Shown in pieces: positions 9,310 to 29,200 of a DNA stretch of 50,607 nucleotides (positions are counted from its first letter, which is position 1; each line of letters starts with the position of its first letter). The DNA is taken from the NCBI GenBank assembly GCA_038874435.1, contig JAVZCK010000013.1:1-50607 (forward strand), read 5' to 3'. The notes beneath the pieces were generated by a model. It saw only the letters and a program-made list of their open reading frames with translations, was not told the DNA's origin and did no database searches. Source of the stretch: Thermoplasmata archaeon. Its GTDB lineage: Archaea > Thermoplasmatota > Thermoplasmata > Lutacidiplasmatales > SKW197. Position numbers and translations under genes: made by a program.

Positions 9310-9720
9310 TTACTTTCCTGCAGCGACATTCTCCAGCATTATGTTTAGCTTTTTTTCAATGAATTCTTTTACTCTTTGTGCAATCATATAACACTCTTCA
9401 GCTTCTTCAAGTGTGGGAACATAAAATTCATCTGGATAGCGGATATTCACGGCATAGAATGTGGGGTTTCCTACATCTATGTTTTCAAAATCACTGTCCT
9501 GTGCCTTACAAAGTTCCAGGAGGTACTCAAGATTATGGGTTTTCCCGAAATCCACGCCTTTCAAAACTAGATAAGATTTCAGCAGTTTTTCAACAAATTG
9601 CTGGCAATGAAAACAAACAGCACCTTTGGGAATTTCCTCAGAGGGTAAACACCTCTCATGGATAACAACTTTCCAGTCCTCCATTGCCCTTAACATCCAT
9701 TTTTTCACATCTTCATTCAT
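9310..9720 (-). CDS. HEPN domain protein
   Basis: A 136-residue helical protein of the HEPN family (PF05168-like), seen in VCFHCQQFVEKLLKSYLV and GKTHNLEYLLELC. HEPN proteins paired with minimal nucleotidyltransferases act as toxin-antitoxin-type modules; many HEPN members are RNases. The classical R-x4-6-H active site is not clear: a Lys stands where Arg is often found before the His of KTHNL, so nuclease activity is uncertain. Its ATG overlaps the stop of the nucleotidyltransferase gene by 4 bp, giving an operon. Confidence 0.85.
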   Translation of the reverse strand: MNEDVKKWMLRAMEDWKVVIHERCLPSEEIPKGAVCFHCQQFVEKLLKSYLVLKGVDFGKTHNLEYLLELCKAQDSDFENIDVGNPTFYAVNIRYPDEFYVPTLEEAEECYMIAQRVKEFIEKKLNIMLENVAAGK

Positions 9721-10058
9721 ATTGAGATTCCTTCCTTCATGGCCTCTCTCACCAGAGAGCCAAACATTTTCTTACCGCCCTCAAATTCCTGTTCCGATTT
9801 TATTATCACATCACAATCTATTTTGACTTTGGCTAGAGATTCTCTAATCGTTTTTGAATAGAGCATTTTTTCTTTAACAGAGAGCCGTTCCTTCACCACT
9901 ACAAGCACATCCCAGTCACTCTGAATTTTAAAATCGCCTCTTGCTCTGGAACCGAAGAGAATTATTTGCAAAACCTCAATTGAATTTGCTTTCATCACGC
10001 TGTTTATTTTTTCCTTCAAAACCGAGATTGCTGCTTCTCTGGTGTCTATTTCTCTCAT
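9717..10058 (-). CDS. Minimal nucleotidyltransferase (MNT), partner of HEPN protein
   Basis: A 113-residue MNT-fold protein with LFGSRARGDFKIQSDWDVLVV, containing the GS-x-A-R-G motif and the two metal-binding Asp residues (SDWDV), and a possible third acidic residue in VKIDCDVII. Such proteins may modify (AMPylate) or neutralise their HEPN partner. The gene is first in its two-gene operon. The pair lies between the ABC ATPase gene and a decayed copy of that gene's end, so it may have arrived by insertion or been trapped by a local rearrangement. Confidence 0.87.
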   Translation of the reverse strand: MREIDTREAAISVLKEKINSVMKANSIEVLQIILFGSRARGDFKIQSDWDVLVVVKERLSVKEKMLYSKTIRESLAKVKIDCDVIIKSEQEFEGGKKMFGSLVREAMKEGISI

Positions 10059-10297: not shown

Positions 10298-12694
10298 GTG
10301 AGCACAAAGGAAGAGGATAAAGTAGCAGAAACAATTAGGATGGCTGCCTTACTCCACGATATTGGAAAGTTTGTCCAGAGGGCTGGAGAGCTGGCGTGGC
10401 ACGAAGATATTAGTGCGAAACTCCTAAGACCTTTTGTTCCTGCGAACCTATTGGATGAAAAGGTTGTAAAAGCGATCCAGTTCCATCATCATGAAAGGAG
10501 GGGATTGAGGATTGATGGGTTGGATGACGATGATAAGGAGATTCTGAAGATTGTACAACTTGCAGATAGATGGGATTCTAGACAGAGAGATGACCTGGAT
10601 GACCCTGATGCTGAAAAGGGCTCACCTACTACAACACCATTGAGCTCGTTTTTTTCGAAGGAAATGCACTACCCAGTGGTAAGGTTTTACCTGCCTTACC
10701 ACTATTGCAAACCGTCGCGGAATCCCCCGTTAGATTACAAAACATGTAAAGCTGGGTTTGAAGAGGGGCTGGCCCAGATTTTGACAAATAAAAATGTTTC
10801 TGCAAAAACAAGGATAGGAGGTCTTCTTGAGTTGCTGAAAGAATACACATACTTTGTTCCGAGTTATACACAAACTACATGCCAGATTTCCCTTTACCAT
10901 CATTTAAAAAGTACATGTGCCATGGCACATGCAATCTATCTCTGGAAAGAAGAAAAAGGGATTGAGGTAATAGAAAAGCCTGACGGGGAACTTGAGAAGG
11001 AAGAAATCTTTTTGTTGGTTTGTGGTGATTTTGTAGGAATCCAGAATTTCATTTATACTATAAAAAGGGGAGCAGAGGAGAAGGAGGCGGGAAAGGGGTT
11101 TGGAAAAAGGTTGAGGGGCAGGTCTCTGCTTGTCCAAATGGTTCAATACTTTGTTGTGAATTATTTGCTTGAGAAACTTGGGTTAGGACAGGAATCTATT
11201 GTGTATTGTTCTGGTGGAAATTTTGCAATTCTTGCGCCTAACATCAAGAGCATAAAGGAAAAGTTAGATGAGGCAGAAAGAGAAATTACACAGTGGTGCA
11301 GGGAAAATTTGGAACCATTGGGAGTGGTAATAGCTACTATTCCATTTAGTGCAAATAACATTCCGAAAAAAGAAGATGAGACATGGGAAATTTGGACTAG
11401 TATTGGACAGAAGCTAGGAGAGAAAAAGCTGAGAAGAGACCGCAACCAGATTGAAAACTTATTTGAGCTTGAAAAAAAGGTAGAAGCTACTTGTTCATAT
11501 TGTGGTGCCCCGAGAGAGAAGAATGCTGAAAAATGTGGTTTGTGTGAAGTATCTGAAATCCTTGGTGAAATTTACAATAAACCAGAAAATCTTGTTATGG
11601 TGTATGGCCCAGGGCGGGGTGGTAGCGGAATTAAGTTCAATGATGTAGGTGTGGAAATTGTTGGAGAAAAAATGTACAAACCAAAAGAAGGAGATGTCTG
11701 CAAATTGCTAGCTAACCAGGAGAAAGAAGAGGCCAAAGGCAAAGATTGGTGGGAGCTTGTAAGCATAGAGTGGCTTTTGGAGAATATAAAGGCAGATGCA
11801 GTACCTAGTAGAGATTATAGGCCTATCTGGCTCGGTAAATCATTTGATGCACTTACAAGCGTAGAGGAATCTGATAAACCAGAGAATGAAGGAGAAGAAG
11901 CAAAGAGTTTTCTCGGTTATCTCCTTATGGATGTAGATAGTCTTGGTGAAAAGCTTAAGAAAGAGATTAAAGTGCTTTCTCACCTTTCTGCTTTTTCTGG
12001 TGAACTTGATTTGTTCTTTACACGCGGGTTGGACTATATAATTGGAAAAGAACTCGGGAGAAAAAATGTATATGTTGTATACTCCGGTGGAGACGACCTT
12101 TTTGCAGTTGCGAGATGGGATAAGGCGATTGCTCTTGCCGAGAAAGTCCAGAAAGAATTTTCCGAATTTTTTGGAAACCAACTTACGATTTCTGCAGGTA
12201 TTTCACTTGCCAGGCCGAGGTACCCAATCTATGGTGCGGCGAGAATGGTGAAGGAGCAAGAAAAAATTGGAAAAGGAAGAAAGGATAGTGAAGGCAAGCC
12301 TGTGAAGAATGCTGTAGGTATCTTTGATGGACCATTGGATTGGGATGGACTGCGAGAAGCATTAGAATTTGGGAACAAGATAGGAAATTGTGAGGAGATT
12401 TCCTCTTCATTTCTCTATCAACTCCTCTTCTTGTTTACAGATAAGGAATTACCTATCACAAAAAGAAATGCAAGAATTGCTTATCAGGTTGCAAGACATT
12501 TTGTCGAAAGAAAGCCAGAGGTTAATAAGTTACTTGAGGACCTGAAAGATAAGTTGTGCCAGATACCTCCTGGAGATAAAGCGGATAAAGAGGAATACCA
12601 TAAAATGGTAGTTGCACTTTCTTATGCATTACTGAAAAGAAGGTTGAAAGAAAAAGAAGAAAGAGAGGTGAATAAAAATGTATCAACAACATGA
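10298..12694 (+). CDS. cas10: Cas10/Csm1, type III-A large subunit with HD and GGDD motifs
   Basis: The 798-residue signature subunit of a type III-A effector. The N-terminal HD domain has ALLHDIGK (~residue 20), the active site for ssDNA cleavage. The first palm region has LLVCGDFVGIQNF, a zinc ribbon lies near residue 400 (CSYCGAP then CGLC), and the second palm carries YSGGDDLFAV near residue 595, the cyclic-oligoadenylate synthase motif. Both activities therefore appear intact. The GTG start fits a TATA box ~27 nt upstream. The 3' end overlaps csm2 by 17 bp. This is the first gene of the operon and should respond to target RNA by making cOA for the CARF proteins encoded downstream. Confidence 0.96.
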   Translation: MSTKEEDKVAETIRMAALLHDIGKFVQRAGELAWHEDISAKLLRPFVPANLLDEKVVKAIQFHHHERRGLRIDGLDDDDKEILKIVQLADRWDSRQRDDLDDPDAEKGSPTTTPLSSFFSKEMHYPVVRFYLPYHYCKPSRNPPLDYKTCKAGFEEGLAQILTNKNVSAKTRIGGLLELLKEYTYFVPSYTQTTCQISLYHHLKSTCAMAHAIYLWKEEKGIEVIEKPDGELEKEEIFLLVCGDFVGIQNFIYTIKRGAEEKEAGKGFGKRLRGRSLLVQMVQYFVVNYLLEKLGLGQESIVYCSGGNFAILAPNIKSIKEKLDEAEREITQWCRENLEPLGVVIATIPFSANNIPKKEDETWEIWTSIGQKLGEKKLRRDRNQIENLFELEKKVEATCSYCGAPREKNAEKCGLCEVSEILGEIYNKPENLVMVYGPGRGGSGIKFNDVGVEIVGEKMYKPKEGDVCKLLANQEKEEAKGKDWWELVSIEWLLENIKADAVPSRDYRPIWLGKSFDALTSVEESDKPENEGEEAKSFLGYLLMDVDSLGEKLKKEIKVLSHLSAFSGELDLFFTRGLDYIIGKELGRKNVYVVYSGGDDLFAVARWDKAIALAEKVQKEFSEFFGNQLTISAGISLARPRYPIYGAARMVKEQEKIGKGRKDSEGKPVKNAVGIFDGPLDWDGLREALEFGNKIGNCEEISSSFLYQLLFLFTDKELPITKRNARIAYQVARHFVERKPEVNKLLEDLKDKLCQIPPGDKADKEEYHKMVVALSYALLKRRLKEKEEREVNKNVSTT

Positions 12695-13109
12695 ACGGAG
12701 AGATTATCGTGGCCATGGTCCACAGAAACAGGAAGAAAAAGTAAACATTGATTTGAAGGGCATGAATTATGAGCAGATCGACCAAAAAGCCGCAGAAATT
12801 GCGGGAGAACTATCTAGAAAAGTGACGCCTAATCAGATGCGGAATGCTTTTGAGCTAATCGCAGGTGCGTTGAAAAAACTGGACCGTGGAAATATAGAAA
12901 CTGTGAAGATGGATTTACTTCTAACCAAGCCGAAAATTGCATACATGGTCAAAGAAGAAAAAAGTATTCCAATGGTAAATTGGTTGCTTGCAGCGATTGA
13001 AAGTGCAATCAAGGCCAACGATGTGGAGACATACAAGAAACTTCAGGCGTTTAATGAGGCATTGTTGGGCTATTTCAAGTATGAGTGCGAAAAAAATAAG
13101 CAGAGGTGA
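12678..13109 (+). CDS. csm2: Csm2, small subunit of the type III-A complex
   Basis: A 143-residue, mostly helical protein with a polar N-terminal tail (~40 residues) followed by a helical bundle including VTPNQMRNAFELI and MVNWLLAAIESAI, a Csm2-type pattern. Csm2 forms the inner filament that contacts target RNA next to Csm3. GAGGTGA lies 5 nt before the ATG. Its size and its place between cas10 and csm3 support the call. Confidence 0.88.
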   Translation: MYQQHERRDYRGHGPQKQEEKVNIDLKGMNYEQIDQKAAEIAGELSRKVTPNQMRNAFELIAGALKKLDRGNIETVKMDLLLTKPKIAYMVKEEKSIPMVNWLLAAIESAIKANDVETYKKLQAFNEALLGYFKYECEKNKQR

Positions 13110-13115
13110 GAAAAA

Positions 13116-13847
13116 ATGAAGTTGAAAGGGAGAATAAAGGTGAATGCTGTGCTTACTGTGGAGACAGGACTGCACATAGGTGGAATGAAAGAGACATACA
13201 GTATTGGGGACCTAGATAACCCTGTGATAAAGATAAAATGGAAGCGAAACAACGAGATGAAAGATTTGCCATACATACCAGGAAGTTCGTTGAAAGGCAA
13301 GATTAGAAGTTTGGTTGAGGAGAAGGAAAAGAATGGCAAGTTTTGCACATGTGCTACTGATTCCTGCACAATCTGTAAACTTTTTGGACCAGGTCCCACT
13401 GGGGAAGCTAAAGGTGGGAAGCCAAGGTTGAAGGTGCGAGATGGATTTTTGTGCAAGGACCAGGAAGCCATGTTGGAAAGTGTTGATTTCGTAGAGATAA
13501 AAATGGAAAATACAATAGATAGGGCAAGAGGAACTGCAAAGAACCCGAGGCAGACAGAGCGAGTTCTACCAGGTACTAAGTTTGATGTGGAATTTGTGAT
13601 TTCATTGTATGAGGGTGATCAACCGAAGGAATTTCTAGAACTTTTGTTTGGAGGGTTGTATATGCTAGAGGATGACTATCTTGGAGGTTCTGGTAGTAGG
13701 GGCTATGGGAAAATCTCTTTCAGCAGCATAAACATATATTATACTGCGGCTGAGGATTATAAGGCAGAGAAGGCCGCCAAAAAGGTTGGAGAGGGAAAAA
13801 CTCTGAAAGAGGTAAATATAAGTGAGATATGCTCCCAAATTAAGTAG
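13116..13847 (+). CDS. csm3: Csm3, backbone RAMP and target-RNA endonuclease
   Basis: A 243-residue RAMP protein. The N-terminus has VETGLHIGG and then SIGDLDNPVIK, where Asp34 aligns with the catalytic aspartate used by Csm3 to cut target RNA every 6 nt. IPGSSLKGKIRSL is the conserved RAMP motif, CATDSCTICKLFG contains zinc-binding-type cysteines, and GGSGSRGYGKI is the glycine-rich C-terminal loop. A GAGGTGA site precedes the ATG. Several copies would bind the crRNA guide. Confidence 0.95.
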   Translation: MKLKGRIKVNAVLTVETGLHIGGMKETYSIGDLDNPVIKIKWKRNNEMKDLPYIPGSSLKGKIRSLVEEKEKNGKFCTCATDSCTICKLFGPGPTGEAKGGKPRLKVRDGFLCKDQEAMLESVDFVEIKMENTIDRARGTAKNPRQTERVLPGTKFDVEFVISLYEGDQPKEFLELLFGGLYMLEDDYLGGSGSRGYGKISFSSINIYYTAAEDYKAEKAAKKVGEGKTLKEVNISEICSQIK

Positions 13848-13864
13848 TGAGGTGTAACCGCCAT

Positions 13865-14770
13865 ATGAAATTGAATGTTGTGAGATTCTATAACTTCTAT
13901 CCAAAATCAGAGTTTCCAGTGCTGCACTCAGATACGGTCTTTGGTGCAGTTTGTAATGCAATTGCCGAGTTGGAAGGTGATGCAGAGCTGGTTAAGATAC
14001 TTGAAAGGATGGAAAAGAACACTGCAGATGGTTTTTGTGTGAGTTCTGGTTTTCCATTTGTGGAAAGTGGAGGACAACTAAGACATCTTATGCCTTTTGA
14101 AGTTTTAAGTTTATCTGAGAAAAAGGAGATGAAAGGGAAATTTGTGGATGTTGAATTTTTTAAGGAAACTAGTAAAGAGATTGATGATTTTATTTATTCG
14201 CCTCCAAAAGGGGTTTACAGAGTAAGAAATCGTGTGGGTAGGGAAATGGAAACGCCTACCACTTTGTTCTCTGTGCCTTATATCATAGACCCGGAAAGGG
14301 ATGTATGGGGTTTCTGGTTTGCATACGCTGGTGATACAAAATTGTGTGAAGAAGCATTTAGATTTTTGAGGGATGAAGGGATTGGTGGCGACAGAAATGT
14401 GGGGAGCAAGTGCGAGAAAATAGAGTTTGCTACACTGGAAGTTTTGGATTCTGGTAACTACTTCACAAATCTTTCTCTTTATGTGCCCGCAGAAGATGAA
14501 TTAAATGGGATAGTTGAAAAGGATTGCTGGTATAAGCTTATCTGTCGTCACGGATGGCGTGAGGTTGATGGTGTGGGCAAAGAATCAAAACCCGCGAGAT
14601 ACTATTTCACAGAAGGAAGTGTATTTTCTACAATTGGGAAGAAGACAGTTTATGGAAAATGTAGCCAGTTTGAGCATCTTAGGGGAGTGTGGTGGTCAGG
14701 GTTAACAATTCCGCTCTATTTCAACAATGTAGAGGGGGTGATTAAATCACTGCAATCAAAGGAAAATTAA
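13865..14770 (+). CDS. csm4: Csm4, crRNA 5'-tag binding RAMP
   Basis: A Csm4-type RAMP of 301 residues starting at ATG 13865, which follows a GAGGTG site by about 10 nt. A GTG in frame at 13847 overlaps the csm3 stop but would add an unlikely MRCNRH tail. The N-terminus reads VRFYNFYPKSEFPVLHSDTV and the glycine-rich loop lies at GIGGDRNVGSKC. Csm4 caps the 5' end of the crRNA and contacts Cas10. The last codons run into the csm5 coding region, where the AGGGGGTGAT sequence appears to serve as ribosome binding site for csm5. Confidence 0.92.
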   Translation: MKLNVVRFYNFYPKSEFPVLHSDTVFGAVCNAIAELEGDAELVKILERMEKNTADGFCVSSGFPFVESGGQLRHLMPFEVLSLSEKKEMKGKFVDVEFFKETSKEIDDFIYSPPKGVYRVRNRVGREMETPTTLFSVPYIIDPERDVWGFWFAYAGDTKLCEEAFRFLRDEGIGGDRNVGSKCEKIEFATLEVLDSGNYFTNLSLYVPAEDELNGIVEKDCWYKLICRHGWREVDGVGKESKPARYYFTEGSVFSTIGKKTVYGKCSQFEHLRGVWWSGLTIPLYFNNVEGVIKSLQSKEN

Positions 14771-15810
14771 CTGCGCTCTCGCCCCTTCTTATCGGTTCTG
14801 AGGAAAAAGGGAAGCTCGGGTATGATTTTGTTGTGAAAGAAGGAATGGCATATCGTGTTGATATACACAAAGTGGTTGGAAAGATTGGAAATCAAGAAAG
14901 AGTGGTGAACGAGTTAGTATCCAAAATGATGGATAGAATGAATCCATTTGATATGGCGTCTTTCCTGAATGATTACAAAGTTCCACCAGACTCTGTTTCA
15001 ATGTACGGAATTGATTCTCAGATTACATCAGCAAAGAGCACATACACTGTCCACTTTTTCATAAAGGATTCTGTGAACAGGGTTTATATCCCTGGCTCTT
15101 CAATTAAGGGTGCAATCAGAACTTACACAGCAGCGAGTAAATTATTGCAGAACAAAAAAGGGAAGCGGGTTGAGGATGTTGGGGAGGAAATTTTTGATTT
15201 GAAAAAGTCCTTTGAACAACCATGGCTTGAACTGTTTCAGCAAAACCTGAAAAGAAGAGACCCTCTCATCAGGGATGCAAAGCCAACGAAAAGCATTTCG
15301 GATGTGCTAACGCTTAGCACAATTGAGATTCATACGGAAAGAGGAGGAACTTTCAGAAGGCAGCAGGGAAAGATATACGGGGAGTTTGTAAAGCCAGGTG
15401 TAGAGTTTGATATTGAGTTTGGAAGGATTGAGAGAAATAAACTGCATGGTATCCTCACTAATGTTGATGCCTATTGCAAGAAAATTGGAGAAATGGAAGA
15501 GGCGTTTTACAGCGAGTATGGAAAAGAAGAGAACTACCAGCACATTGCAGATTTTTATAAGTCTTCTATCAGGAGTTCTGGAGATAAAGAGTATATTTTC
15601 AGGATAGGCATGGGCTCTTCTTTTCTCTGCACTTCTCTTCTACCAGTGCTGAAAGTTCTAGGGTATAAGAATGCAGAAGAGATTTTCAAAAAAGTTCTGC
15701 GGGGAAGGAGGTCTCCATTGGCTATTACAGTGCCCGACTCAAGAAAATTAACTAGCATCGGAGGTAGTTTGTATCCGATTGGCTGGGTTAAATTGACGCT
15801 TCAGGACTGA
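14746..15810 (+). CDS. csm5: Csm5, 3'-end RAMP, with an apparent non-canonical start
   Basis: A Csm5-type RAMP. The conserved first strand, IKGKLTALSPLLIGS, is encoded upstream of every ATG, GTG or TTG in this frame. The frame opens after a TAA at 14743-14745; the first canonical codon is GTG 14833, inside the first domain and too late. A strong AGGGGGTGAT site at 14733-14742 is followed at 14746 by ATC, giving a 355-residue protein beginning (I/M)TAIKGKL. I therefore place the start at the ATC. Other motifs are IPGSSIKGAIRTY (~125) and IGMGSSFL (~285). Alternatives are a sequencing error or a -1 frameshift from csm4 at TTAAAT. Csm5 binds the crRNA 3' region and recruits trimming nucleases. 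Confidence 0.85.
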   Translation: MTAIKGKLTALSPLLIGSEEKGKLGYDFVVKEGMAYRVDIHKVVGKIGNQERVVNELVSKMMDRMNPFDMASFLNDYKVPPDSVSMYGIDSQITSAKSTYTVHFFIKDSVNRVYIPGSSIKGAIRTYTAASKLLQNKKGKRVEDVGEEIFDLKKSFEQPWLELFQQNLKRRDPLIRDAKPTKSISDVLTLSTIEIHTERGGTFRRQQGKIYGEFVKPGVEFDIEFGRIERNKLHGILTNVDAYCKKIGEMEEAFYSEYGKEENYQHIADFYKSSIRSSGDKEYIFRIGMGSSFLCTSLLPVLKVLGYKNAEEIFKKVLRGRRSPLAITVPDSRKLTSIGGSLYPIGWVKLTLQD

Positions 15811-15814
15811 GAAT

Positions 15815-16747
15815 ATGAGTGTGTATCATTTAACCGGCTTGGGACTTAGCCCAGGGGCAGTTACTATGCCACTTTCTTGCGTTTACTATCTTGAAATGGC
15901 CTCACAGGCAGGGTACACCAGCGCCCAAAGGTTCTTTGAGTGGAGTGGAGAGGTGAAGAATGAGGTAGAGAAATACAAAGGGAAGCCAGAAGCGTTGATA
16001 ATGTTTACAACGGAAGATGTGATTAAATGCATGGAAAAGGGTAGGTGTAGAGAGTATAGGGACGAGTGGTTTAACTCATCCAGTGATAAAAAGGACATTG
16101 GCGAAATTATAGATAGATATCTAGAGAAGCTCGAAGAGAACACAATTAGGAGTTTAAAGTATGTGTGCATGGTAAAGGTTGACATCAATGATTTTTCGCA
16201 GACAGTGGAGGTAGTTGGAACCACAATTTCAGCACTGCGAGATAAAGAGATGTGGTTCAATATGGTAGGAGGTGCTAACACAATAAATGCTGCACTACTT
16301 ATTGCGGGTTTGTTATCAGGAGCAAGTACCAGATATTACTATGTGTTCTGTTCTCAAGAGGAGATAAAATACCTGCATCCTAGATGGATTAACTCACCGA
16401 AAGCGTTGGATGCCCAGATGGTAAATAATACAGTAAGGAAGTGGGTGGAATTGCCATTATTTTTCATGGGAATTGAGAGGTTGGAAACTCTTTATGAAAT
16501 ACTAAAAACTCGTGGGGGAAAAATTAATCGTAATGAAGCGACTGGTATTCTCGGAGAAATTCCTATTGAGAAACTCCGTGGAAGAATTCTCATGATTGAA
16601 GATACCACAGTTTCTGCAGGTGTGCTCTTGGAGCGTATAATGGAAATATATGGAAAGATTAAATCTAGGAATGTGCAGAATCTTACCGACTGGAAGAAGT
16701 GGGCTGAACAGCAAGGTATATTGAAGGTGTTGAGGTGGGAAAAATGA
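15815..16747 (+). CDS. CARF-type CRISPR accessory protein without visible HEPN motif
   Basis: A 310-residue protein starting VYHLTGLGLSPGAVTMPL, a Rossmann-like first strand as in CARF proteins, with MVGGANTINAALLIAGLLSG (~150) as the second CARF core motif and YYYVFCS on the following strand. This domain would bind cyclic oligoadenylate. The C-terminal third has a helix-rich stretch, ETLYEILKTRGGKINRNEA, that could be a winged helix. No R-x4-6-H HEPN nuclease motif is present, so it is not an ordinary Csm6/Csx1 RNase. It might be a ring nuclease, a cOA-responsive regulator, or a new effector. It is 4 bp after csm5. Confidence 0.72.
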   Translation: MSVYHLTGLGLSPGAVTMPLSCVYYLEMASQAGYTSAQRFFEWSGEVKNEVEKYKGKPEALIMFTTEDVIKCMEKGRCREYRDEWFNSSSDKKDIGEIIDRYLEKLEENTIRSLKYVCMVKVDINDFSQTVEVVGTTISALRDKEMWFNMVGGANTINAALLIAGLLSGASTRYYYVFCSQEEIKYLHPRWINSPKALDAQMVNNTVRKWVELPLFFMGIERLETLYEILKTRGGKINRNEATGILGEIPIEKLRGRILMIEDTTVSAGVLLERIMEIYGKIKSRNVQNLTDWKKWAEQQGILKVLRWEK

Positions 16748-17502
16748 AGACATGTGTGATTGCGCCGATGGGCACAAGCCCTCCTGTTGTGAGCGAATAC
16801 ATTGACTGGCTTTATAGACACAACCAGTATGTGAACGATGTTGTGATTATTGATACGCAGGAAAAGAGGGTGAGGGCATCTACAGAGATAGTGCGTATTG
16901 CATTTCTGGAGAAATTTCCCGACTTGAGGGTGCATGTGCATACCCTAGAGTATCCAGATATAGATTCAACTGAAAGGAACATAGAGTTCATGCGTGTATG
17001 TGCAGAAATAATAAAGGAAGAGCGCGAGAAACATAATGTGGAGCGTGTCATTTTAAATGTTGGAGGTGGAAGAAAGAACATGTGCATCACGCTTACTTTA
17101 GTTGGGCAGTTGCTAGGAGTTAACGGTGCCTTCCATGTGGTAAACAAGAATGTGCAGGATGTGAATCTTACGCTGGAAAAAATGCGGAAAGATATCGAAG
17201 ATATTTATGAACTGACGAGCGATGAGGAAAAGCTTGATAGGTTCAGGGCAAAAAAAGAAGATTTTGAGCATTTGCTATTCCCAGATGAAAGCCAGTATGA
17301 GATAATTCAGTTACCTGTGATACCATTGCCTCCAGAAGTTTTGGGGATAATAAAGACATTGTTGTGTGAGGAAAGCGATGTTGAGCTTCATGCAGAGATG
17401 CGGAGGTACAAGGAGTTACTCGCAAATGCAGGCCTGGGTTACTGGGAGCGAGGAAGGTTCAGAACCGAGAAATTTGGTGAAGAAATAGGGAAGTTGTTGT
17501 AG
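16744..17502 (+). CDS. CARF-domain protein, NE0113-like
   Basis: A 252-residue protein from ATG 16744, which overlaps the previous stop (ATGA) and follows GAGGTGGG. The N-terminus, CVIAPMGTSPPVVSEYI, resembles the GxSPxVVTE motif of the Cas_NE0113 family, and VILNVGGGRKNMCITL is the second CARF-type loop. The C-terminal ~90 residues (PPEVLGIIKTLLCEESDV onward) look helical, perhaps a winged helix; no R-x4-6-H motif is found. It could bind or degrade cyclic oligoadenylate. It is probably a distant paralogue of the preceding gene, since both begin with a similar G-x-SP motif. Confidence 0.75.
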   Translation: MKTCVIAPMGTSPPVVSEYIDWLYRHNQYVNDVVIIDTQEKRVRASTEIVRIAFLEKFPDLRVHVHTLEYPDIDSTERNIEFMRVCAEIIKEEREKHNVERVILNVGGGRKNMCITLTLVGQLLGVNGAFHVVNKNVQDVNLTLEKMRKDIEDIYELTSDEEKLDRFRAKKEDFEHLLFPDESQYEIIQLPVIPLPPEVLGIIKTLLCEESDVELHAEMRRYKELLANAGLGYWERGRFRTEKFGEEIGKLL

Positions 17503-18465
17503 ATGCTGGAAATAGGAAATTTTGTGGTTGGGATTAAGTTTGAGGAACCTGCAAGTTTACCAGAATGGAAGGGAAATTTTATAAGGGGAGTATTGGCCAA
17601 GCATGTGCGGGATATTTCCTGTTCTAGGAAGAGACAGGATTGTAAGTTGTGTAGAATGCGGTCTAACTGTGTTTACTATGCTCTGTTTGAGGCATCTGCG
17701 CCAGCAAATGCAAGGTATTTGAGCAAGCTTGAGGGAATTCCGAGGCCCATTGTGATTAGCGAAACTGGCATGGACAAAAGTGCGTATGAATGCGGAGAGA
17801 CTGCGAGTTTTGGGATTGTTTTAGTAGGGAGTGGTTTGAAAGGATTGCCAGTGATTGTGGGTGCTTTGCAAAATCTTGGAGAATGTGGAATGAGCATTGG
17901 AGGGCACAGAGGAAAGTTTGTGTTGGAGCGAGTTCAAGCAAGAGGGTTAGACGAAAATAATTTGAATGTGTTTGAAGATGGGAAATTGAATTTAGATTTT
18001 CCAAGGTTGCGATTTGAGGATTTCCTTGTAAAGGTGGAGAACTATAGTGGTAAGCTGTGTTTGAATTTTCTGACGCCAACACAGATAAAAGCAGAAGGCA
18101 CAGTAGAAACACCTCCAAAGTTTAGAAATCTTCTTGCAAGGTTAGCATTTAGAGTGAATGCACTTGCGAATTATTACACTGGTAAATTGGAAATCGCAGA
18201 GGGGAAAATAAAGCAGATGTTGAGAGCAAGTGAGAATGTGAGAATAGGTAGCACTGAAATTAAGATTCTCCCTGAATTTTTAAGGGTTTCGCACAACAAA
18301 GTGACGAGGCATCATATGTTCTTCATGGGTAAGATATGGTATGAGGGCGAATTTTCGAGAGATGTAATGGCGCTTTTGCGTTTCGGTTCCCTCCTCCATG
18401 TGGGCAAATATGCTGGTTTTGGATGTGGAGAATATCTGCTTGAGCAAGAACCAGTGCAGTTATGA
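17503..18465 (+). CDS. cas6: Cas6 crRNA-processing endoribonuclease
   Basis: A 320-residue Cas6-type RAMP. The N-terminal region carries a cysteine cluster (CSRKRQDCKLCRMRSNC), seen in a subset of archaeal Cas6 proteins, and the C-terminus has the glycine-rich FGSLLHVGKYAGFGCGEY loop. It would cleave the long array transcript within each repeat to give crRNAs with an 8-nt 5' tag. The gene starts directly after the preceding stop and is the last cas gene; the CRISPR leader begins after it. No cas1, cas2 or cas4 is present, so new spacers would need proteins encoded elsewhere. Confidence 0.9.
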   Translation: MLEIGNFVVGIKFEEPASLPEWKGNFIRGVLAKHVRDISCSRKRQDCKLCRMRSNCVYYALFEASAPANARYLSKLEGIPRPIVISETGMDKSAYECGETASFGIVLVGSGLKGLPVIVGALQNLGECGMSIGGHRGKFVLERVQARGLDENNLNVFEDGKLNLDFPRLRFEDFLVKVENYSGKLCLNFLTPTQIKAEGTVETPPKFRNLLARLAFRVNALANYYTGKLEIAEGKIKQMLRASENVRIGSTEIKILPEFLRVSHNKVTRHHMFFMGKIWYEGEFSRDVMALLRFGSLLHVGKYAGFGCGEYLLEQEPVQL

Positions 18466-18528
18466 GCGTGAGTTAATTTTTACCCGTTAATCTGCTTGGT
18501 TTGTGGTGTGCCTATGATAGACATGTGG

Positions 18529-18669
18529 GTATACTTAGGTATGCGTTAATAATAGCCAGAAATGAGGGATGTAGGAATACCTAAAGGGTGTACCTGATGC
18601 ATATATCGAGAAGGTATACTTAGGTATGCGTTGATAATAGCCAGAAATGAGTGGTGTATGAATACCTAA
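18529..18669. repeat. Two 56-bp direct repeats bounded by inverted octamers
   Basis: Copies lie at 18529-18584 and 18614-18669, identical at 52 of 56 positions. Within each, TTAGGTAT (18535-18542; 18620-18627) and ATACCTAA (18577-18584; 18662-18669) are perfect inverted octamers exactly 50 bp apart outer to outer, with the centre ATAATAGCCAGAAATGAG shared. A third, degenerate copy may start at ~18694 (CTAGGTAT). They may be binding sites for a dimeric regulator, a recombination structure, or hairpins in a leader RNA. Confidence 0.85.
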
Positions 18670-18703
18670 GGTGGATGTAAGGATTGTAAAAACTAGGTAT
18701 AAA

Positions 18704-18799
18704 GAAGGTATACATTGAGAATAGCATTTGTAGAGATGGCTCCAAAGAGAGAGGTGCTCGGTTTGTTTAGCACCAAGAGGTATCCATGTGTATACCTTC
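18704..18799. repeat. 11-bp inverted repeat in the leader
   Basis: GAAGGTATACA at 18704-18714 and its complement TGTATACCTTC at 18789-18799 enclose 74 bp. GAAGGTATAC also occurs directly before the second 56-bp repeat (18610-18619). The motif GGTATAC is thus present at four places in the leader. Confidence 0.75.
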
Positions 18800-18870
18800 T
18801 GGGAGACGCATTTGTCGGGCATCCCTGCGTGAGAGATACATTATTATACATCCCCGACAATTTATAGAAC

Positions 18871-18896
18871 GATTTTGCGTTTAAACCCGCAAAATC
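18871..18896 (+). promoter_or_regulatory. Hairpin just before the first repeat
   Basis: GATTTTGCG (18871-18879) pairs perfectly with CGCAAAATC (18888-18896) around an 8-nt loop, 16 bp before the first CRISPR repeat. It would be in the 5' part of the pre-crRNA or could mark an integration host site. Confidence 0.6.
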
Positions 18897-18912
18897 TCAA
18901 AAAATCGCCCGT

Positions 18913-21900
18913 GTCAAAACCCGATGAAAAGGGGACTGGAACGGGTGAATGCTTTACTATCTGACATCATAGAAGGTAAGTCAAAACCCGATGAAAAGGG
19001 GACTGGAACCAATCCTCACCTGTTGCAGAAGCCCTTGGAAATTTCAGTCAAAACCCGATGAAAAGGGGACTGGAACTTATAATACCTCTCTATTTCCTCA
19101 TAGATTGTCCTGGTCAAAACCCGATGAAAAGGGGACTGGAACACCGTATATTTTTGTCCATTTTTTTCCACGATTTTAGTCAAAACCCGATGAAAAGGGG
19201 ACTGGAACGTTTGAACTGGAGTCCTGAACCGTTACGCACGCTACGTCAAAACCCGATGAAAAGGGGACTGGAACGGGGGTTATCTCCTTCGTGTCTGCCC
19301 CGCCAGACACCTGTCAAAACCCGATGAAAAGGGGACTGGAACTTGTTTTTCACTACATACGAGCCAGACGGGTTGTTTGTCAAAACCCGATGAAAAGGGG
19401 ACTGGAACGGCAAATAGAATACTTGCAAACACCCGTCATTACAAGGTCAAAACCCGATGAAAAGGGGACTGGAACCACCAAGAGGTGGCAGGAAATCCAC
19501 TTGGATGGATTGTCAAAACCCGATGAAAAGGGGACTGGAACACTACAACATCACCAAGACCCGTTGCATCTATATAGTCAAAACCCGATGAAAAGGGGAC
19601 TGGAACGCGGATACTCGTGTAGGTTACCATCCGAATGTTAAGGTCAAAACCCGATGAAAAGGGGACTGGAACGCGAACCAGCTCGTATATTTGCTTCGCC
19701 AAAAACTTCCGTCAAAACCCGATGAAAAGGGGACTGGAACGTAAAACTTCCTCCACCCTCCTTTTATCTTTGTTAAAGTCAAAACCCGATGAAAAGGGGA
19801 CTGGAACGATTGCCGAAATAATCGGTTGAAATTACTTTTTCATTCGTCAAAACCCGATGAAAAGGGGACTGGAACTTTTTAGAACTACCTTGCCATTCAA
19901 CAACACCGCTGCGTCAAAACCCGATGAAAAGGGGACTGGAACTAACGAGGAGCAGGAAGTTTTTGGCGAAGCAAATATAGTCAAAACCCGATGAAAAGGG
20001 GACTGGAACGGGATACCCCCACATGATAACCACCACACTTAACGCATTGTCAAAACCCGATGAAAAGGGGACTGGAACGGAAAGTCCTCTGGGGACTTAA
20101 TCGGGCGGGTCTGCAGTCAAAACCCGATGAAAAGGGGACTGGAACTTGTGAACCCCCTGCATGTTTTGAAATGAGGATTTGGTCAAAACCCGATGAAAAG
20201 GGGACTGGAACATATACTCCAAAGCGTATATGGGGATGGTGATACCAGTCAAAACCCGATGAAAAGGGGACTGGAACAATACTAATTCCTCATCCGCTGC
20301 AATTTTCTTATCCGTCAAAACCCGATGAAAAGGGGACTGGAACCCCGTGATAATGTTTTCTCTCGTCCAAACACCCTTCCGTCAAAACCCGATGAAAAGG
20401 GGACTGGAACTGGAAATGCTGGCTATTGTAGGTCTCAAACATCCAGGTCAAAACCCGATGAAAAGGGGACTGGAACGATGCACTTGGGAATTTTGCAAGT
20501 GCTGGCTCTTCAGTCAAAACCCGATGAAAAGGGGACTGGAACATTACCATGTAATATCTATCAGCATGTAAGCCGCTAGTCAAAACCCGATGAAAAGGGG
20601 ACTGGAACGGAGTTTAGCGTTGTTTATACTGCTTCAGCATCGGAAGTCAAAACCCGATGAAAAGGGGACTGGAACCAGTAAATTATAACATACTTCATTT
20701 TATCACCATCCGTCAAAACCCGATGAAAAGGGGACTGGAACTGTTAGATAGAGCAATACTTGACATACAGAACGATTTGTCAAAACCCGATGAAAAGGGG
20801 ACTGGAACCTTTTTGTGTGATAGTCAACTGTTTCAGATGTGACACGTCAAAACCCGATGAAAAGGGGACTGGAACAATCAATGCCTCCAAACTTCTCAAT
20901 CACATCCTTACGGTCAAAACCCGATGAAAAGGGGACTGGAACATAATCTGGAGATGTTTGCATGCAAGACACTTTGCAAGTCAAAACCCGATGAAAAGGG
21001 GACTGGAACAAAAAGATATGATATTAACCAAAATAAAAGAATTGGGTCAAAACCCGATGAAAAGGGGACTGGAACTTCTTGGTTGCATTCCGTCATCATC
21101 GGGTATTGCTTGTCAAAACCCGATGAAAAGGGGACTGGAACGTAGTCTTTGCACAGTTCAAACTCTGTATCTCCAACTGTCAAAACCCGATGAAAAGGGG
21201 ACTGGAACCGAATTGATGACAGTGTAAAAGAAGCAAAGCAAAAGGTCAAAACCCGATGAAAAGGGGACTGGAACATAAAAATCAGGATTGCTTTTTTACT
21301 CCGAGATGCTGGTCAAAACCCGATGAAAAGGGGACTGGAACTTGCCGTTGGCTGCTGGTAACATGGTTAGGGAGTTTAGTCAAAACCCGATGAAAAGGGG
21401 ACTGGAACTTCATACTCGCTCTTGCTCAATACGACACGGTCGTCGTCAAAACCCGATGAAAAGGGGACTGGAACTCTTCTTCTAAATCTACTAATCGGTT
21501 CTCTGCTAATAGTCAAAACCCGATGAAAAGGGGACTGGAACGAACTTTCCAAATGTCCTGTTCGCAGACATCCAAAACGTCAAAACCCGATGAAAAGGGG
21601 ACTGGAACCCCCGTTCTTCTTTTGGGTCTTCATTCTATCACCCGTGTCAAAACCCGATGAAAAGGGGACTGGAACTGTCTCTTCGGGTAGATTACCATGT
21701 CGCTTCTCATAGTCAAAACCCGATGAAAAGGGGACTGGAACTATGGGCGTTTGCCGCTTTGACGCACTACTGCCATCCGTCAAAACCCGATGAAAAGGGG
21801 ACTGGAACTATGGTTTTAGTATGTCTTGAACTATGAAGTTGCGTGTCAAAACCCGATGAAAAGGGGACTGGAACATAGCACAGACAACACTCAGAAGCGA

Positions 21901-22007
21901 TTTTTTAGTGGTCAAAACCCGATGAAAAGGGGACTGGAACACATTTGTTCCTAATAAACCTAATATTCCCATGATTTGTCAAAACCCAATGAAAAGGGGA
22001 CTGGGAT
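18913..22007 (+). CRISPR. Main CRISPR array: 47 repeats, 46 spacers
   Basis: The 30-bp repeat starts GTCAAAACCC, continues GATGAAAAGG and ends GGACTGGAAC. Forty-six copies appear identical; the 47th (21978-22007) has CCAATG for CCGATG and ends CTGGGA, the expected decayed distal repeat. Spacers are 35-39 bp, mostly 36-37, with a period of 65-69 bp. The leader and cas genes are upstream, so the newest spacers should be near 18943. Spacers at 19673-19710 and 19943-19979 are reverse complements over 25 nt. Translating the repeat gives recurring peptides such as SKPDEKGTGT, which are not genes. Confidence 0.99.
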
Positions 22008-22135: not shown

Positions 22136-22420
22136 ATGAACAAAGCAGAACTCTTTGAAAAGATAACCCAGTTTCTGAAAGAGCGGGGAGTGAAAAAGGT
22201 AGCCATTTTTGGGTCATATGTTCGTGGAGAGGAGAGGCCAGATAGCGATATAGATATCGTCGTGGAGTTTTCAGAAAGGAAAAGTTTACTTGACATTATA
22301 GAGCTTGAGCAAGAACTCTCTGAGTTACTAGGAGTAAAGGTGGAATTACTCACAGAAAAATCGATAAGCCCTTACATGATTGAAAGAATAAGAAATGAGA
22401 TGAAGGTGTTATATGGATGA
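22136..22420 (+). CDS. mntA: MNT-type nucleotidyltransferase, partner of HepT
   Basis: A 94-residue minimal nucleotidyltransferase with KVAIFGSYVRGEERPDSDID: the GS motif and two metal-binding Asp residues are intact, followed by VEFSERKSLLDIIELE and KVELLTEKSI. In characterised MntA-HepT pairs this enzyme AMPylates a tyrosine of the HepT toxin and neutralises it. Its stop overlaps the original hepT start at 22417 (ATGA). The pair lies between the two array parts. It is not a close copy of the MNT at 9717-10058. Confidence 0.88.
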   Translation: MNKAELFEKITQFLKERGVKKVAIFGSYVRGEERPDSDIDIVVEFSERKSLLDIIELEQELSELLGVKVELLTEKSISPYMIERIRNEMKVLYG

Positions 22421-22828
22421 GTAAAGACGATACAGTTTACCTGAAACATATTCTGGATGCACTACTTTGTTACACCCACTGCATATCTTACCTCTGGTGC
22501 GGTTTACCTGAAACATATTCTGGATGCACTACAAAGAATTGAGGAATATACGCAAGGAGTAAGCTATGAGTGCTTCCAGAAGAGTAACTTAATTCAAGCT
22601 GGTGTAATAAGGGAACTTGAGATAGTGGGCGAAGCAACTAAAAGATTAAGTGAGAATACCAGAATGAGATATCCGCACATACCTTGGAATAAAATGGCAA
22701 GGATGAGAGATAAGTTGATACACGGTTATTTCGGTGTAGATTTAGACGCTGTATGGGATACTGTTAAAAAAGATGTCCCATTGTTGAAAACCATGTTAGT
22801 AGAAATTCTTGAAAAAGAGAATAAATGA
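22417..22828 (+). pseudogene. hepT: HepT (HEPN, DUF86) toxin gene interrupted by a 67-bp insertion
   Basis: The original start is ATG 22417, overlapping the mntA stop. The reading frame begins MSKDDTVYLKHILDALQ and would continue directly into RIEEYTQGVSYE; a 67-bp insertion (22435-22532 region) shifts it so that the original start now yields a ~41-residue peptide. An ATG created within the duplicated segment (22457) reopens the correct frame and could make a 123-residue protein with a new N-terminus MHYFVTPTAYL. The active-site motif RDKLIHGYF (R-x4-H-x-Y) is intact, so a toxin might still be produced. Without the insertion the protein has the usual DUF86 length. Confidence 0.85.
22435..22532. 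repeat. 31-bp duplication around a 36-bp insert: candidate off-target spacer integration
   Basis: GTTTACCTGAAACATATTCT and the next 11 bases occur at 22435-22465 and again, exactly, at 22502-22532. Between them is 36 bp of unrelated sequence (22466-22501). Repeat plus insert is 67 bp, the same period as the flanking CRISPR arrays (30 bp plus 36-37 bp). Both the duplicated block and the CRISPR repeat start with GT and end with AC. Removing one copy plus the insert restores the DUF86 reading frame, which shows the direction of change. Confidence 0.85.
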
Positions 22829-22838
22829 GCAGTAGTGC

Positions 22839-23136
22839 GTCAAAACCCAATGAAAAGGGGACTGGAACAAAGAGAGTTAAAAAGAGTTTAGAGTATTTCC
22901 TTGTTGTCAAAACCCAATGAAAAGGGGACTGGAACGGGTTTACGAATGGAGTCGCACATATCGCTAACCCGTGTCAAAACCCGATGAAAAGGGGACTGGA
23001 ACGATTTTAACTTTCTCTTTTTTGTTTTTTCTCCTACCAGTCAAAACCCAATGAAAAGGGGACTGGAACGAATCTGCGAGCAACACAAATCTTTCAAACC
23101 CTTTCTGTCAAAACCCAATGAAAAGGGGACTGGGAG
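22839..23136 (+). CRISPR. Second CRISPR array: 5 repeats, 4 spacers of 37 bp
   Basis: Repeats start at 22839, 22906, 22973, 23040 and 23107. Four have the variant CCAATG; the third (22973) has the main-array form CCGATG. The last repeat ends CTGGGA, the same decay as the last repeat of the main array. The first repeat begins 10 bp after the hepT stop, with no leader. This is best read as the old distal end of a single array, cut off by the MNT/hepT segment, or as a duplicated array end. Transcription might come from hepT. Confidence 0.97.
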
Positions 23137-23271: not shown

Positions 23272-26200
23272 GTGGGTCTGAACATTCTAAAAGGCAAGGA
23301 AAAACATACACCACCACCTGACCGCAGAGAAGAGGACTTACTTCACCGCATTGCTGCCACAGATGTCTGGAAACTGAATCCAGATGCAACTGCCAAATTC
23401 GTGAATGACCTTATCTCGCTACTTCTTACTGTACCTTTTTCCAGAGAACTGCACATGCGAGCACCACCAGAGCCGCCGGAAAGAGTGAAAGCCATCCTTG
23501 AAACTGTTTCAATGAAAACAACTGAGCTTGAGGTGAAATTCAACTCTCTCATTCCTAGCACAGAACTCTACTACCATCTTGGCTGTGCCCACTACAACCT
23601 CGCAAAATTCTCAGAAGCAGAAAACTTCTTTGATAAAGTCACCAAAGTGGACAAAAACCACTTCAAGGGCATGCTCGCACTCGGGCTTACAAAGATGGAG
23701 CTGGACAAGGACATCGAAGCCCTTGAAACAATGAAAAAACTGATAGAAATTGAGCCGAACAACGAAACTGGCTGGTATTCCCTTGGCTTAATACTCTACA
23801 AACTCAAGAAACATGAAGATGAGATTGAATGCTATGAGCGGGCAATTGCAATCAACAGAAGATATGAGCCGGCATGGAACAATCGTGGGCTTACGCTCTA
23901 CGAACTTGGCAGGTATGGCGAGGCCGCAGAAAATTTCGCAGAAGCATTGAAAATCAACCCGAGAAATGAAAAATTCTGGCATGGGATGGGCCTTGTCCAC
24001 ATGAAACTCAACAATTTAGACACAGCCCTCAAGGACTTTGAGACCGCTGCTCAGGTTAACCCGCATTATCCAGAAGCATGGTACAGCAAGGCAGCAGTGC
24101 TTCTGCAGCTCAACAAACCCTCTGAGGCCTTGGGAGCAGTAGAGCAAGCTCTTTCACTCAGAAAAACCTTCAGGGATGCACTGCTTCTCAAGGGCAAAAT
24201 CCTAGAAAAACTTGGAAAGATTGGAGATGCAATCTCAATTTTTGACGCCCTGATAACTGAAGCACCAGATAACCCTGAACCCTATCTTGCAAAGGCAGAG
24301 GTGATGGAAAAATCAGGAAACACAAAGGAAGCCCTCGCTGCCCTTGACAGAGTAATTTCTCTTTCAGGAAGTCAGGCGGCATATCTTCTCAAAGCCAGAA
24401 TTTTGAGAAAGCATGGAAGTGTGGAAGATGCTCTCAGGGTTTACCTCCAGATTCTTGACAGGGATAGAGCAAACTACAATGTGATGAAACTTGCTGGTGA
24501 GTGTCTCTACGAGCTTGGCAAATATGACGACGCTTCCCAAATGTTCAAGAAGGTGCTGAGCGTCCAGGTAAACTCACATGAGGCATGGTTTTGGAAAGGA
24601 AAGTGCGACATAAAGCGAAATGCAATCAAGGATGGCATCCACGCAATGGAAATGGCTGTTTCACTCTCGCCAAAGAATGTGAAATACATAAGGGAGCTGA
24701 TTCGGGTTGCAAAGGAACTTGGAAAAAGAGAGCTTTATCTCAAGTACGAGGAGATGCTCACTTCGCTGGAACAGGATAATCCAGAGGTTTGGTATGAGAA
24801 AGCAAATGCCTACTTTGAGATAGGAAAATTGGACGAGGCGGAAAAAGCAGTGGAAAAAGCAATTTCACTGAATAAGGACTGGCCAGATGCCCTCTTTCTG
24901 CTTGCCAGAATAATGCATCTGAAGGAGAATTACAACACTGCAGTTGAAATCATGGAAAACCTGCTAGAAAAAGACAATACTAATGCCTCTGCCTGGCTTT
25001 TCCTGGCAACCCTGAAAAATGAAATGGGAGAACCAGGAGATGCAATTATCTGTGCGGAACGCACCCTTGAACTCAAGCAGAGTGCAGAGGGCTATTACCA
25101 GTATGGACTCGCACTTAAAGAAATTGGCAAACTTGCAGAGGCAGGCAATGCATTTACAAAAGCGTTTGAGCTGGACAACAGCTATGTCCGTGCCTTAGTG
25201 GCAAGAGCAGAGGTGCTGGAAGCTTTGAAATCCTATGAGAGTGCATTTGAGAGCTATGCTTCTGCCTACCAGAAAAACCCATCTCCCAGGGTGCTTACAA
25301 AATTGATAGAGATGGGAGAGAAGATAGGAAGAATTGAGGACACAATAAAATACCTTGAGGAAGGAATTAAAAGGGACGAGCAGAATCCAGAACTCTGGCT
25401 TGTGTATGGCAGAATGCTTGCAAAAAAAGGAGAAGATTTGGAATCCATACGGGCATTCGAAAAGGGCTTGATGTTTGCACCAGAACATCTGGCACTTCTT
25501 AAAGCCCTGTTTGAAGGTTATGCAAAAGCAGAAAGATACGAGGAAGCAGTGAAAACTGGCTTGAAAATTGTGGAAACTGAAGAAACACCAGAGCTCTGGT
25601 ATTCCATCGGAAATCTTCTCCTCAAACTGGGGCGGATTGAGCGAGCCCTTGAATGCTATCAGCAGGCAGTTTACCTCAACCCTGAGCTTGTGGAGGCCTA
25701 TGTCGCCAGGGGCAAGGTATTTGCTGAAAAAGGAGAGTTTGAAAAAGCTGCAGGGGAATACCGCAGAGCGGTTGAAATCAGGCCAGATGCCTACGAACCC
25801 AGATTTGCACTTGCTACGCTGCTCACCAAACAAAAGCAGTATCAGGAGGCACTGGAACACATTGAGAAAGCAATTGCAACAAAGAGGAGTGCAGAAGCCC
25901 TGCTGGAAAAGGCAAGAATTCTTAACTCACTTGGGAAATTGGAGGAGAGCGTAACTGCCTACGAGCAGGCATTCCAAGTTTCACAGCAAATACCAGAAAT
26001 TCTCTATGAAAAGGCACTCGTGCTAGAAAAACTTGGTTTGATTGAACCAGCAATTGAAACTCTTGAAAAGAATCTCCAGTTGCACAAACATGAAAAGAGT
26101 GCATCAGCCCTTGTTGAGATGCTTGAAGGTGTAGGGAAGCTGGAACAGGCCCTTGAGGTTTGCGAACGCGCTTTCAATGACTATAAAACTGAGCTCTTTC

Positions 26201-29200
26201 TGATTGCAAGGGAACGACTGTTCCAGAAACTTGGAAGGATTGAAGAATTGGTGGCCCATTACGACTTTCTCCTTGAAAAAGCTAGAACACCAGAGTTTCT
26301 GTACAAAAAAGCAGAACTTCTTTTGCAGCTCAAAAGGTATGATGAGGCAAGGGAGAGCATTGAGGAAGCATTGAGCATCGAGAAAAAACCAGAGTATTTT
26401 CTTGTCTATGCAAGGATCACCGCTGCAGCTGGCTCAATTGACGGCGCTCTTTCTGTGCTTGCGAAAGGACTTCGTTCCTTCAAAAACCACATCGGACTTA
26501 CTGCAGAGCGAGCAAAGCTGCTGATTGCTGCTGGACGAGGTGAGGAAGCTGAGAAAATTGTGCAGGAGTTGATTGAAGAGGAACCAGAAAACCTGGAATA
26601 TCTGCATCTCCTTGCAAAGCTGAAGTTGAGCACTGGCGATTATTCAGGTGCAATCACAATTCTGGAAAAAATTATTGAGCTTAGCCCGGAATCACCAGAT
26701 GCTCTGAGCAATCTGGGGGATGCTTGTTTCCACACCCACAGATACGATGAAGCGTTAAAATGGTACAATAAAGCCCTGGCAGTTTTAGAATCTGCAGAAG
26801 TGAGGGAGAAGGCAGCAAGGACTGCACTTTTGCTCAGCAGATATGAGGAGGCACTGAAGCACATTGATATGCTTGTAAAAACCAATCCAGAGAATCCTGA
26901 ATATTTGGTGCTACAGGGCAAGGCACTTGTGGGCTTGAATCGCTTTATCTATGCCCTTGAAACTTACAACAGAGTCCTGAAAATTCAGCCAGAAAATTTG
27001 AGTGCCTGGTATGGCAGGGCTTTGGCCCTTGCAAAAATAGGGGATGTGAGCGAAGCTCTGGCAAGCATTGAAAAGGCAATTTCTTTCGGTAGAAGCATGG
27101 AGGCATTGAAGTTAAGGGCAAAACTGCTCAGTGAATTAGGAAAATTTGAGGATGCATTGAATGCTTATGAGGAATTGCTCGTTTCAGAGCCAGACAACCA
27201 GGAACTGCTTCTTGAGAAGGGCATCACACTTGTCAGGATGGGTAGAGAAGAGGAGGCAGAGCAGATTTTCCTGAAATTGGTTGCAGCCCAGCCAGAAAAT
27301 GCAACAGCCCATTACTATCTGGGAAAAATTTATGCCACCAGAGGTGCGCTTGAGGAAGCGAAGAGCCATTTAGAGACAGCAATCGAATCTGCGCCGGAGA
27401 ATGCAGAGGCAAGAATGCTTCTTGCAGAAATTTACTTACGCACAGGGACACAAGATGGTATGGTGAAAGCTGGAGAGCAGTACACAGCAATACTTAGCTA
27501 TCAGCCGAAGAACATGGCAATTATCTACAAACTCGCAGAAATCCACATGAAACTTGAGAATTTTGAAAAGGCCATCGACTTTATAAACGGATTTTTAGCA
27601 GAGGAACCAAATCACACAGGGGCACTCTACCTAAAAGGAAATATTTTTGTTAAACAGAAAAAATTGAGAGAGGCAGCAAGAACATTTGAGAAGCTTTTGA
27701 AGCTTCAGGAGATGCCAGAGGCACATCTGGACTATGCTTTCTGTCTCATGGGTCTTGAAAAATTTGAGGAGGCAAGAAGGCACATTGAACGCTACATTGA
27801 GTTGAAAGGAAAGGATGTGAAGGCATTGCTGGCTCTAGCGAGATGCAGTGAACTGTGGCAAAATTACGAGGAAGCAATTGAGAATTATACGGAAGTACTG
27901 GCATTTGAGTTTTGCGAAGAAGGAATAGAAGGCAAAATCAGGGTGCTGAAGAAAACAGGTAAATATAGGGAATTGTTTGACTTCTATAAGGAAGTGATTG
28001 CGAAAAAGGATAGTGAGAATTTAAGAGTTGAGGCCTTGGAAGCCCTATGCAAGTTTGGCACCGTAGAAGAGATTAAAAACTTCATAGAGACTTCCATTTC
28101 CAAGTTTCCAGATTCAGTTGCGCTCCTCGTGAAGAAAGGGGAACTTGAGGAGGCATGGGCGGAAAAAGAGAATGCAGTTAACACCTACATGAAGGCACTC
28201 AGCTTGCAGCGAACAGAACCAGAACTTTGGTATAAATGCGCTAAACTCTACCGCGAGCTTGGAAAGCTAGCAACTGCTGCAGAATGTTTAGATAAGGCAA
28301 TCGAGCTTAAGCCAGAAAATCCTGTATATCTTGAAGAAAAAGGGAATTTAGCGTACGCAATGCTAGAAGTGGATGTAGCTGTTAGGAATTTGGATGCGGC
28401 TCTTGAACATGACGAGGCGAGACCTCAGACCTGGATTTCTCTTGGCAAAATTATGGATGAGATAGGTAGATACGCAGAAGCGTTGAGATGTTTTGAGAGA
28501 GCGATAGATATAGAAGAAAACGCAGAAGTCATGGCTCTGAAAGGAAGAACATTAGTTAAGATGGGAAAGGTTGACGAAGGTGTTTCCTGCTTCCAGAGAG
28601 CTCTTTCTCTGGACAAGAACCACGGAATGGCAAGATATTTCATCGGTGCTGTTCTTGCGAGAAAAGGAGACCCAAATAGCGAGAAAATATTAGAGAGTGT
28701 TGATGTCTGGCCTGCAGATGTGCGAATTCATCTTGGCAATCTGCTTTTCAAAAAAGGAAAGTTTGAAGAAGCGGCATGGAAGTATGATGAAGCCACGAGA
28801 ATTGAAAGGAAGAAGATAGAGGGCTGGAACAACCTGGGTGTTGCCCTTGCAACGAACAGAATGTACGAGGAGGCAATAGATGCATTTGATGAGGCAATTG
28901 ACATTGAAAAGGAGTATGGCACTGCTTGGTACAATAAGGGAATTGCATTACTGAAAATTGAGAGCTGGAAGGAGGCACTGGATGCATTAACGCTCAGCGG
29001 AAACTATGAGGGCTTTAAGCCCGAGATTCAAACAGCCATTGCCATCGCACTTCTGCAACTCCGGCGGTATGAGAATGCGATAAAATTGCTTGATGAGGTT
29101 GTTGCAAAGACAGAGTACGGAAAAGGAATTTACAATCTTGCACTTGCTTACCTTATCATAGATATACCTGAAAAAGCACTTGAATATGCAAAGATTGCTT

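Follow-up and report, generated by a model that had tools for sequence, protein, structure and literature searches.

The locus and its intergenic region

The type III-A locus analysed here raises the question of what function, if any, is served by a set of repeats packed between its last cas gene and its CRISPR leader. The window, by which we mean the whole stretch of DNA analysed (50,607 nucleotides), is an entire contig (C13) of a 2.16-Mb genome. Its type III-A genes follow the order cas10-csm2-csm3-csm4-csm5, two CARF genes and cas6, and a 447-bp intergenic region separates cas6 from the CRISPR array (Table 1). The two CARF genes given for this locus in an earlier note on the same DNA were confirmed. 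A divergent HEPN/nucleotidyltransferase pair (9310-10058, minus strand) is located directly upstream of cas10.

Table 1. Positions in the window of the type III-A genes, the repeat region, the leader and the array.
Feature	Position	Strand	Remarks
Type III-A effector genes cas10/csm1, csm2, csm3, csm4, csm5	10298..15810	+	
CARF protein P0001	15815..16747	+	CARF3 group
Csx14/Cas_NE0113 CARF protein	16735..17502	+	
cas6	17503..18465	+	final gene ahead of the repeats
Tandem block A (~82 bp)	18504..18585	+	57-bp core 18528-18584: GGTATAC, TTAGGTAT, core, ATACCTAA
Tandem block B (84 bp)	18586..18669	+	57-bp core 18613-18669
Block C, probable degenerate third block	~18670..18755	+	from B-C alignment
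Perfect 12-bp inverted repeat	18703..18800	.	
10 GGTAT/ATACC boxes	18528..18796	+/-	+: 18528, 18538, 18613, 18623, 18696, 18707, 18779; -: 18577, 18662, 18792
Conserved CRISPR leader (~103 bp)	18810..18912	+	86% identical to the leader on contig C12
CRISPR array	18913..22007	+	repeat GTCAAAACCCGATGAAAAGGGGACTGGAAC

A tandem module with inverted repeats

The intergenic region contains a direct repeat of 57 nt, the two copies of which are 93% identical (53 of 57 positions) and start 85 bp apart. Each copy is made up of GGTATAC, TTAGGTAT, a 34-bp core and ATACCTAA. The two 8-bp arms, TTAGGTAT (at 18535 and 18620) and ATACCTAA (at 18577 and 18662), are complementary and have an outer span of exactly 50 bp in both copies; the right arm forms the end of the unit and the left arm lies 7 bp inside it. 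All mismatches between the copies fall outside the arms. The two palindrome-bounded repeats described in the earlier note are thus real. An 8-bp inverted repeat arose within the unit in 1.5% of shuffles. Overlapping block C and extending past it is a second inverted repeat, AGAAGGTATACA/TGTATACCTTCT (18703-18714 and 18789-18800), with 74 nt between arms that match at 100%. The downstream pair noted earlier therefore exists and is perfect, with arms of 12 bp rather than 11; shuffling the 446-bp region produced one of this length in 0.8% of trials, and 202 other slices of the window contained none.

As judged from the alignments, the 57-bp copies are best described as the cores of a tandemly duplicated segment of ~83 bp, since the segment preceding copy 1 (GGTGTGCCT-ATG-ATA) partly resembles that preceding copy 2 (GGTGTACCTGATGCATA), a likeness with a p value of 0.07 when taken alone. 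Global alignment of blocks A and B, which lie head to tail with their linkers, gave a score of 109 against a shuffle mean of 27, with none of 2000 shuffles as high; the linkers alone are weakly alike. Block C is probably a degenerate third copy. Its global alignment with block B scored 38 against a shuffle mean of 24.7 (p = 0.016), and its left half retains GGTAT...GGTAT and TTGAGAATAGC, with AGGTAT, AGGTAT and AATAGC in register, while the right arm ATACCTAA is missing. Both the duplication and this probable third copy had escaped the earlier note, as had the start of the leader only at ~18810. Between the two clear copies just 7 of 28 linker positions are identical (ungapped), in contrast to the high identity of the core, which suggests constraint on the core. 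No convincing small open reading frame and no tRNA were found in the repeat region, the copies start 85 bp apart, a distance not divisible by three, which also speaks against coding, and the unit showed no similarity above shuffles to either the leader or the CRISPR repeat.

Enrichment of GGTAT boxes

The pentamer GGTAT, or its complement ATACC, occurs 10 times in positions 18466-18911 (446 bp) where 1.6 occurrences are expected, the maximum in 2000 shuffles being 7. With copy 2 removed there are still 7 against 1.3 expected, a count equalled in 1 of 5000 shuffles; these figures are somewhat flattering because the pentamer was picked after the region had been viewed. Three direct pairs of GGTAT have start spacings of 10-11 bp, or about one helical turn. 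Two of them are duplicates of each other, and one, at 18696-18711, belongs to block C. Helical phasing of the boxes is partly a product of the duplication, and weak: the non-duplicate ones give p = 0.02 at a period of 10.5 bp and p = 0.12 when periods of 10-11 are considered. The stretch preceding cas10 showed no such cluster of GGTAT.

The conserved leader and a second array

The earlier note had placed this density of elements in the CRISPR leader. A dense motif cluster is indeed present beside the leader, but the repeat units end upstream of the conserved leader sequence. The latter contains GTCGGGCAT (18814-18822), a TATA-like ATTATTATA (18840-18848) and ATCCCCGAC (18850-18858), and by its sequence the leader promoter is predicted to lie at the TATA-like box. 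Within the conserved leader the TATA-like ATTATTATA stands between GTCGGGNAT and ATCCCCGAC. The matching leader on contig C12 occupies 45994-46096 (minus strand). An inverted repeat, GTCGGGCAT/ATCCCCGAC (18814-18858), encloses the TATA-like box of the window's leader, and in the C12 leader its arms are perfectly complementary.

The C12 array has a different repeat (GTTCAAACTGGACTAAGGTAGGATTGAAAT) and is located near the type I-B genes cas1, cas4, cas3, cas5 and cas7; no Cas1 was found in the genome other than the one encoded here. Two spacers are common to both arrays in the same orientation: spacer 3 of the window (19077-19112) is spacer 2 of C12, and spacer 19 is spacer 24 of C12 except for one added base. 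The common leader, the single Cas1 and the two common spacers suggest a shared adaptation machinery. The sequence of window spacer 3 is also overlapped, in shifted register, by C12 spacer 54, and had no exact match in viral contigs.

A putative DNA control region

The reading that we favour, with a probability of about 0.5, is that positions 18504-18800 control the type III-A array in cis, as DNA. The region would have been built by tandem duplication of the ~83-bp segment, and GGTAT sites are clustered in it in both direct and inverted orientation. Several of them would probably be bound by a protein, which may bridge the inverted arms and would either raise or silence transcription from the leader promoter just downstream. 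Protein binding, the promoter under control and the direction of that control are all inferred here. This reading is favoured because the region lies upstream of the predicted promoter, is dense in one motif and has a core better conserved than its linkers. The motif is enriched about sixfold over shuffles, for a pentamer chosen after the fact, and remains enriched without the duplicate copy. The sites stand upstream of a TATA-like box in a leader conserved between two arrays, and the unit is confined to the type III-A array in the material searched. The GGTAT pairs spaced by about one helical turn, two of them duplicates of each other, and the Sulfolobus precedent described below also speak for it. 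Against it, a homologous region from another species was not found, so that phylogenetic conservation lends it no support. The lack of a recognised DNA-binding domain in either CARF protein counts against it too, as do the want of a GGTAT cluster ahead of cas10, the weak helical phasing and the dispute over the Sulfolobus precedent. Among the three roles that the earlier note had proposed, regulation of array transcription appears from the sequence to be the best remaining.

The main rival, which we regard as unlikely though of real weight, is neutral tandem duplication, in which a functionless intergenic segment of ~83 bp, rich by chance in motifs and with a palindrome of its own, was copied through slippage or unequal exchange. 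Clear copies number just two and come from a single genome, with none in any relative searched, and the single 8-bp inverted repeat per unit is not an extreme event at its shuffle frequency. The C12 array, moreover, has built up a long spacer record without the unit. The greater divergence of the linkers than of the core argues against neutrality, as does the persistence of the GGTAT enrichment outside the duplicated copy. Neutral duplication retains its share of the probability, since gene conversion could account for the likeness of the cores and the comparison is limited to one species.

Distribution of the unit

Searches for the TTAGGTAT/ATACCTAA pattern with a 50-bp span found two sites in the genome, both of them in the 57-bp copies, and allowing up to two mismatches in the arms added only matches at chance level. 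The unit was absent from 60 relatives searched by BLAST, from 389 other genomes of the phylum searched by pattern, from the only same-genus genome sampled, and from collections of viral contigs, phages and plasmids. The C12 leader, a related leader of the kind in which the earlier note had suggested looking for the unit, lacks it. Among 42 arrays of fetched type III loci, the window included, no unit of such form and length was found except beside the window's own array; short duplications of other kinds adjoin an array in two of these loci (L033 and L042).

These results bear on the possibility that the units are what is left of a mobile element, either MITE-like or in the form of transposon ends, that had entered the interval from cas6 to the leader. 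The inverted repeats do lie at or near the unit ends, and that of block A can be partly extended (GGTATAC...GTGTACC). No further copy beyond the chance-level matches exists in the genome, however, and the plasmids, phages and viral contigs searched have none; the copies are in tandem rather than dispersed, and no transposase was identified alongside them. We therefore consider a mobile origin improbable. The scattered, MITE-type distribution against which the earlier note had set its own interpretation was not observed, so its link to the CRISPR locus survives on this point.

RNA structure and spacer adaptation

A structured RNA, one of the roles proposed at the outset and taken here as hairpins in the 3' untranslated region of cas6 or in the leader RNA, is now very doubtful. 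The 12-bp inverted repeat does pair in the predicted fold of the region, but the fold energies (z = -1.37 for the region and -0.59 for the unit) are no better than those of shuffles, the unit would close a 34-nt loop, no Rfam match was obtained and the whole lies upstream of the predicted leader promoter. There is no covariation, because the two copies differ outside the arms only. Single-strand folding being thus unremarkable, an RNA element is unlikely.

Least credible is the proposal that the units mark the array for spacer adaptation by Cas1-Cas2, for although mutation of a leader-distal motif lowers adaptation in Sulfolobus islandicus (PMC9456107), the C12 array has the same leader, the sole Cas1 found adjacent to it and two common spacers but no units, so that they are probably not needed for adaptation, and all that the two leaders share is 18810-18912.

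Comparison with known leader elements

For S. islandicus it is reported that CRISPR transcription is activated by Csa3a, which binds a leader-distal motif (PMC9456107). S. solfataricus also has leader palindromes, at CRISPR loci C, D and E (PMC8699464), and the CAPPa palindrome, TCCCN8GGGA, occurs in Sulfolobales CRISPR leaders and the promoter of acquisition genes; in the same study the measured binding of Csa3a was non-specific, which disputes the Sulfolobus precedent (PMC8699464). The present element resembles these in being palindromic, leader-associated DNA in an archaeal genome with type III and CARF genes, and is comparable to the leader-distal motif in position only. Its units, TTAGGTAT-N34-ATACCTAA, do not follow the CAPPa pattern: the sequence is unrelated and the arms are 34 bp apart rather than 8. 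CAPPa is found in several leaders and an acquisition promoter, whereas the present unit occurs as tandem modules at one array, did not turn up at any acquisition promoter and is absent from the C12 leader. The CAPPa systems have Csa3, a CARF protein with a winged helix-turn-helix domain; none was detected here apart from one sub-threshold Csa3_N match.

Intergenic minisatellites (VNTRs) likewise have head-to-tail copies, here of ~83 bp with indels, in non-coding DNA. They differ from the present case in that its core is far better kept than the linkers, one motif is enriched and a leader with a predicted promoter is adjacent. With MITEs and other dispersed palindromic repeats the unit shares its short length and inverted repeats near the ends, as terminal inverted repeats would be, but it occurs at one place in the genome and in tandem. 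We therefore regard the element as a new example, in the broad sense, of repeat or regulatory DNA adjoining a CRISPR leader, and not as a CAPPa element.

CARF proteins as candidate regulators

If a protein does bind the putative control region, the CARF protein P0001 is a candidate for the regulator of the array. The best matches of both CARF proteins were CARF-only profiles, and in neither was a DNA-binding domain recognised. P0001 gave weak matches to Csa3_N and HFX_2341_N, below the cut-off, with no helix-turn-helix detected; no gene in this genome exceeded the cut-off for Csa3_N, and P0001 was the sole sub-threshold match. Its single-sequence structure model had a pLDDT of 35, too poor to judge a helix-turn-helix, and all Foldseek matches had E > 1. 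One relative, 31% identical, was found in the fetched type III loci, and none among 399 other genomes of the class. A more elaborate scheme, which we would call a long shot, has the region as an enhancer-like operator array bound by a CARF protein that senses cyclic oligoadenylate and switches the type III array only, the I-B array being constitutive, such that one Cas1 would fill two differently controlled arrays.

Should the region control the type III-A array, the genome would amount to a natural experiment. Its two arrays have the same kind of leader, a single cas1 and two spacers in common, and as the extra upstream module stands at only one of them, the requirements of a leader in adaptation could be told apart from the control of array transcription. 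If the duplication is neutral, it is an ordinary one.

Further features are found downstream of the main array. A nucleotidyltransferase and HepT-like pair (22136-22828) lies between it and a short second array (22839-23136), the repeats of which mostly have the variant CCCAATG. The start region of hepT contains a 31-bp exact direct repeat, and a 2432-codon open reading frame occupies positions 23272-30570.
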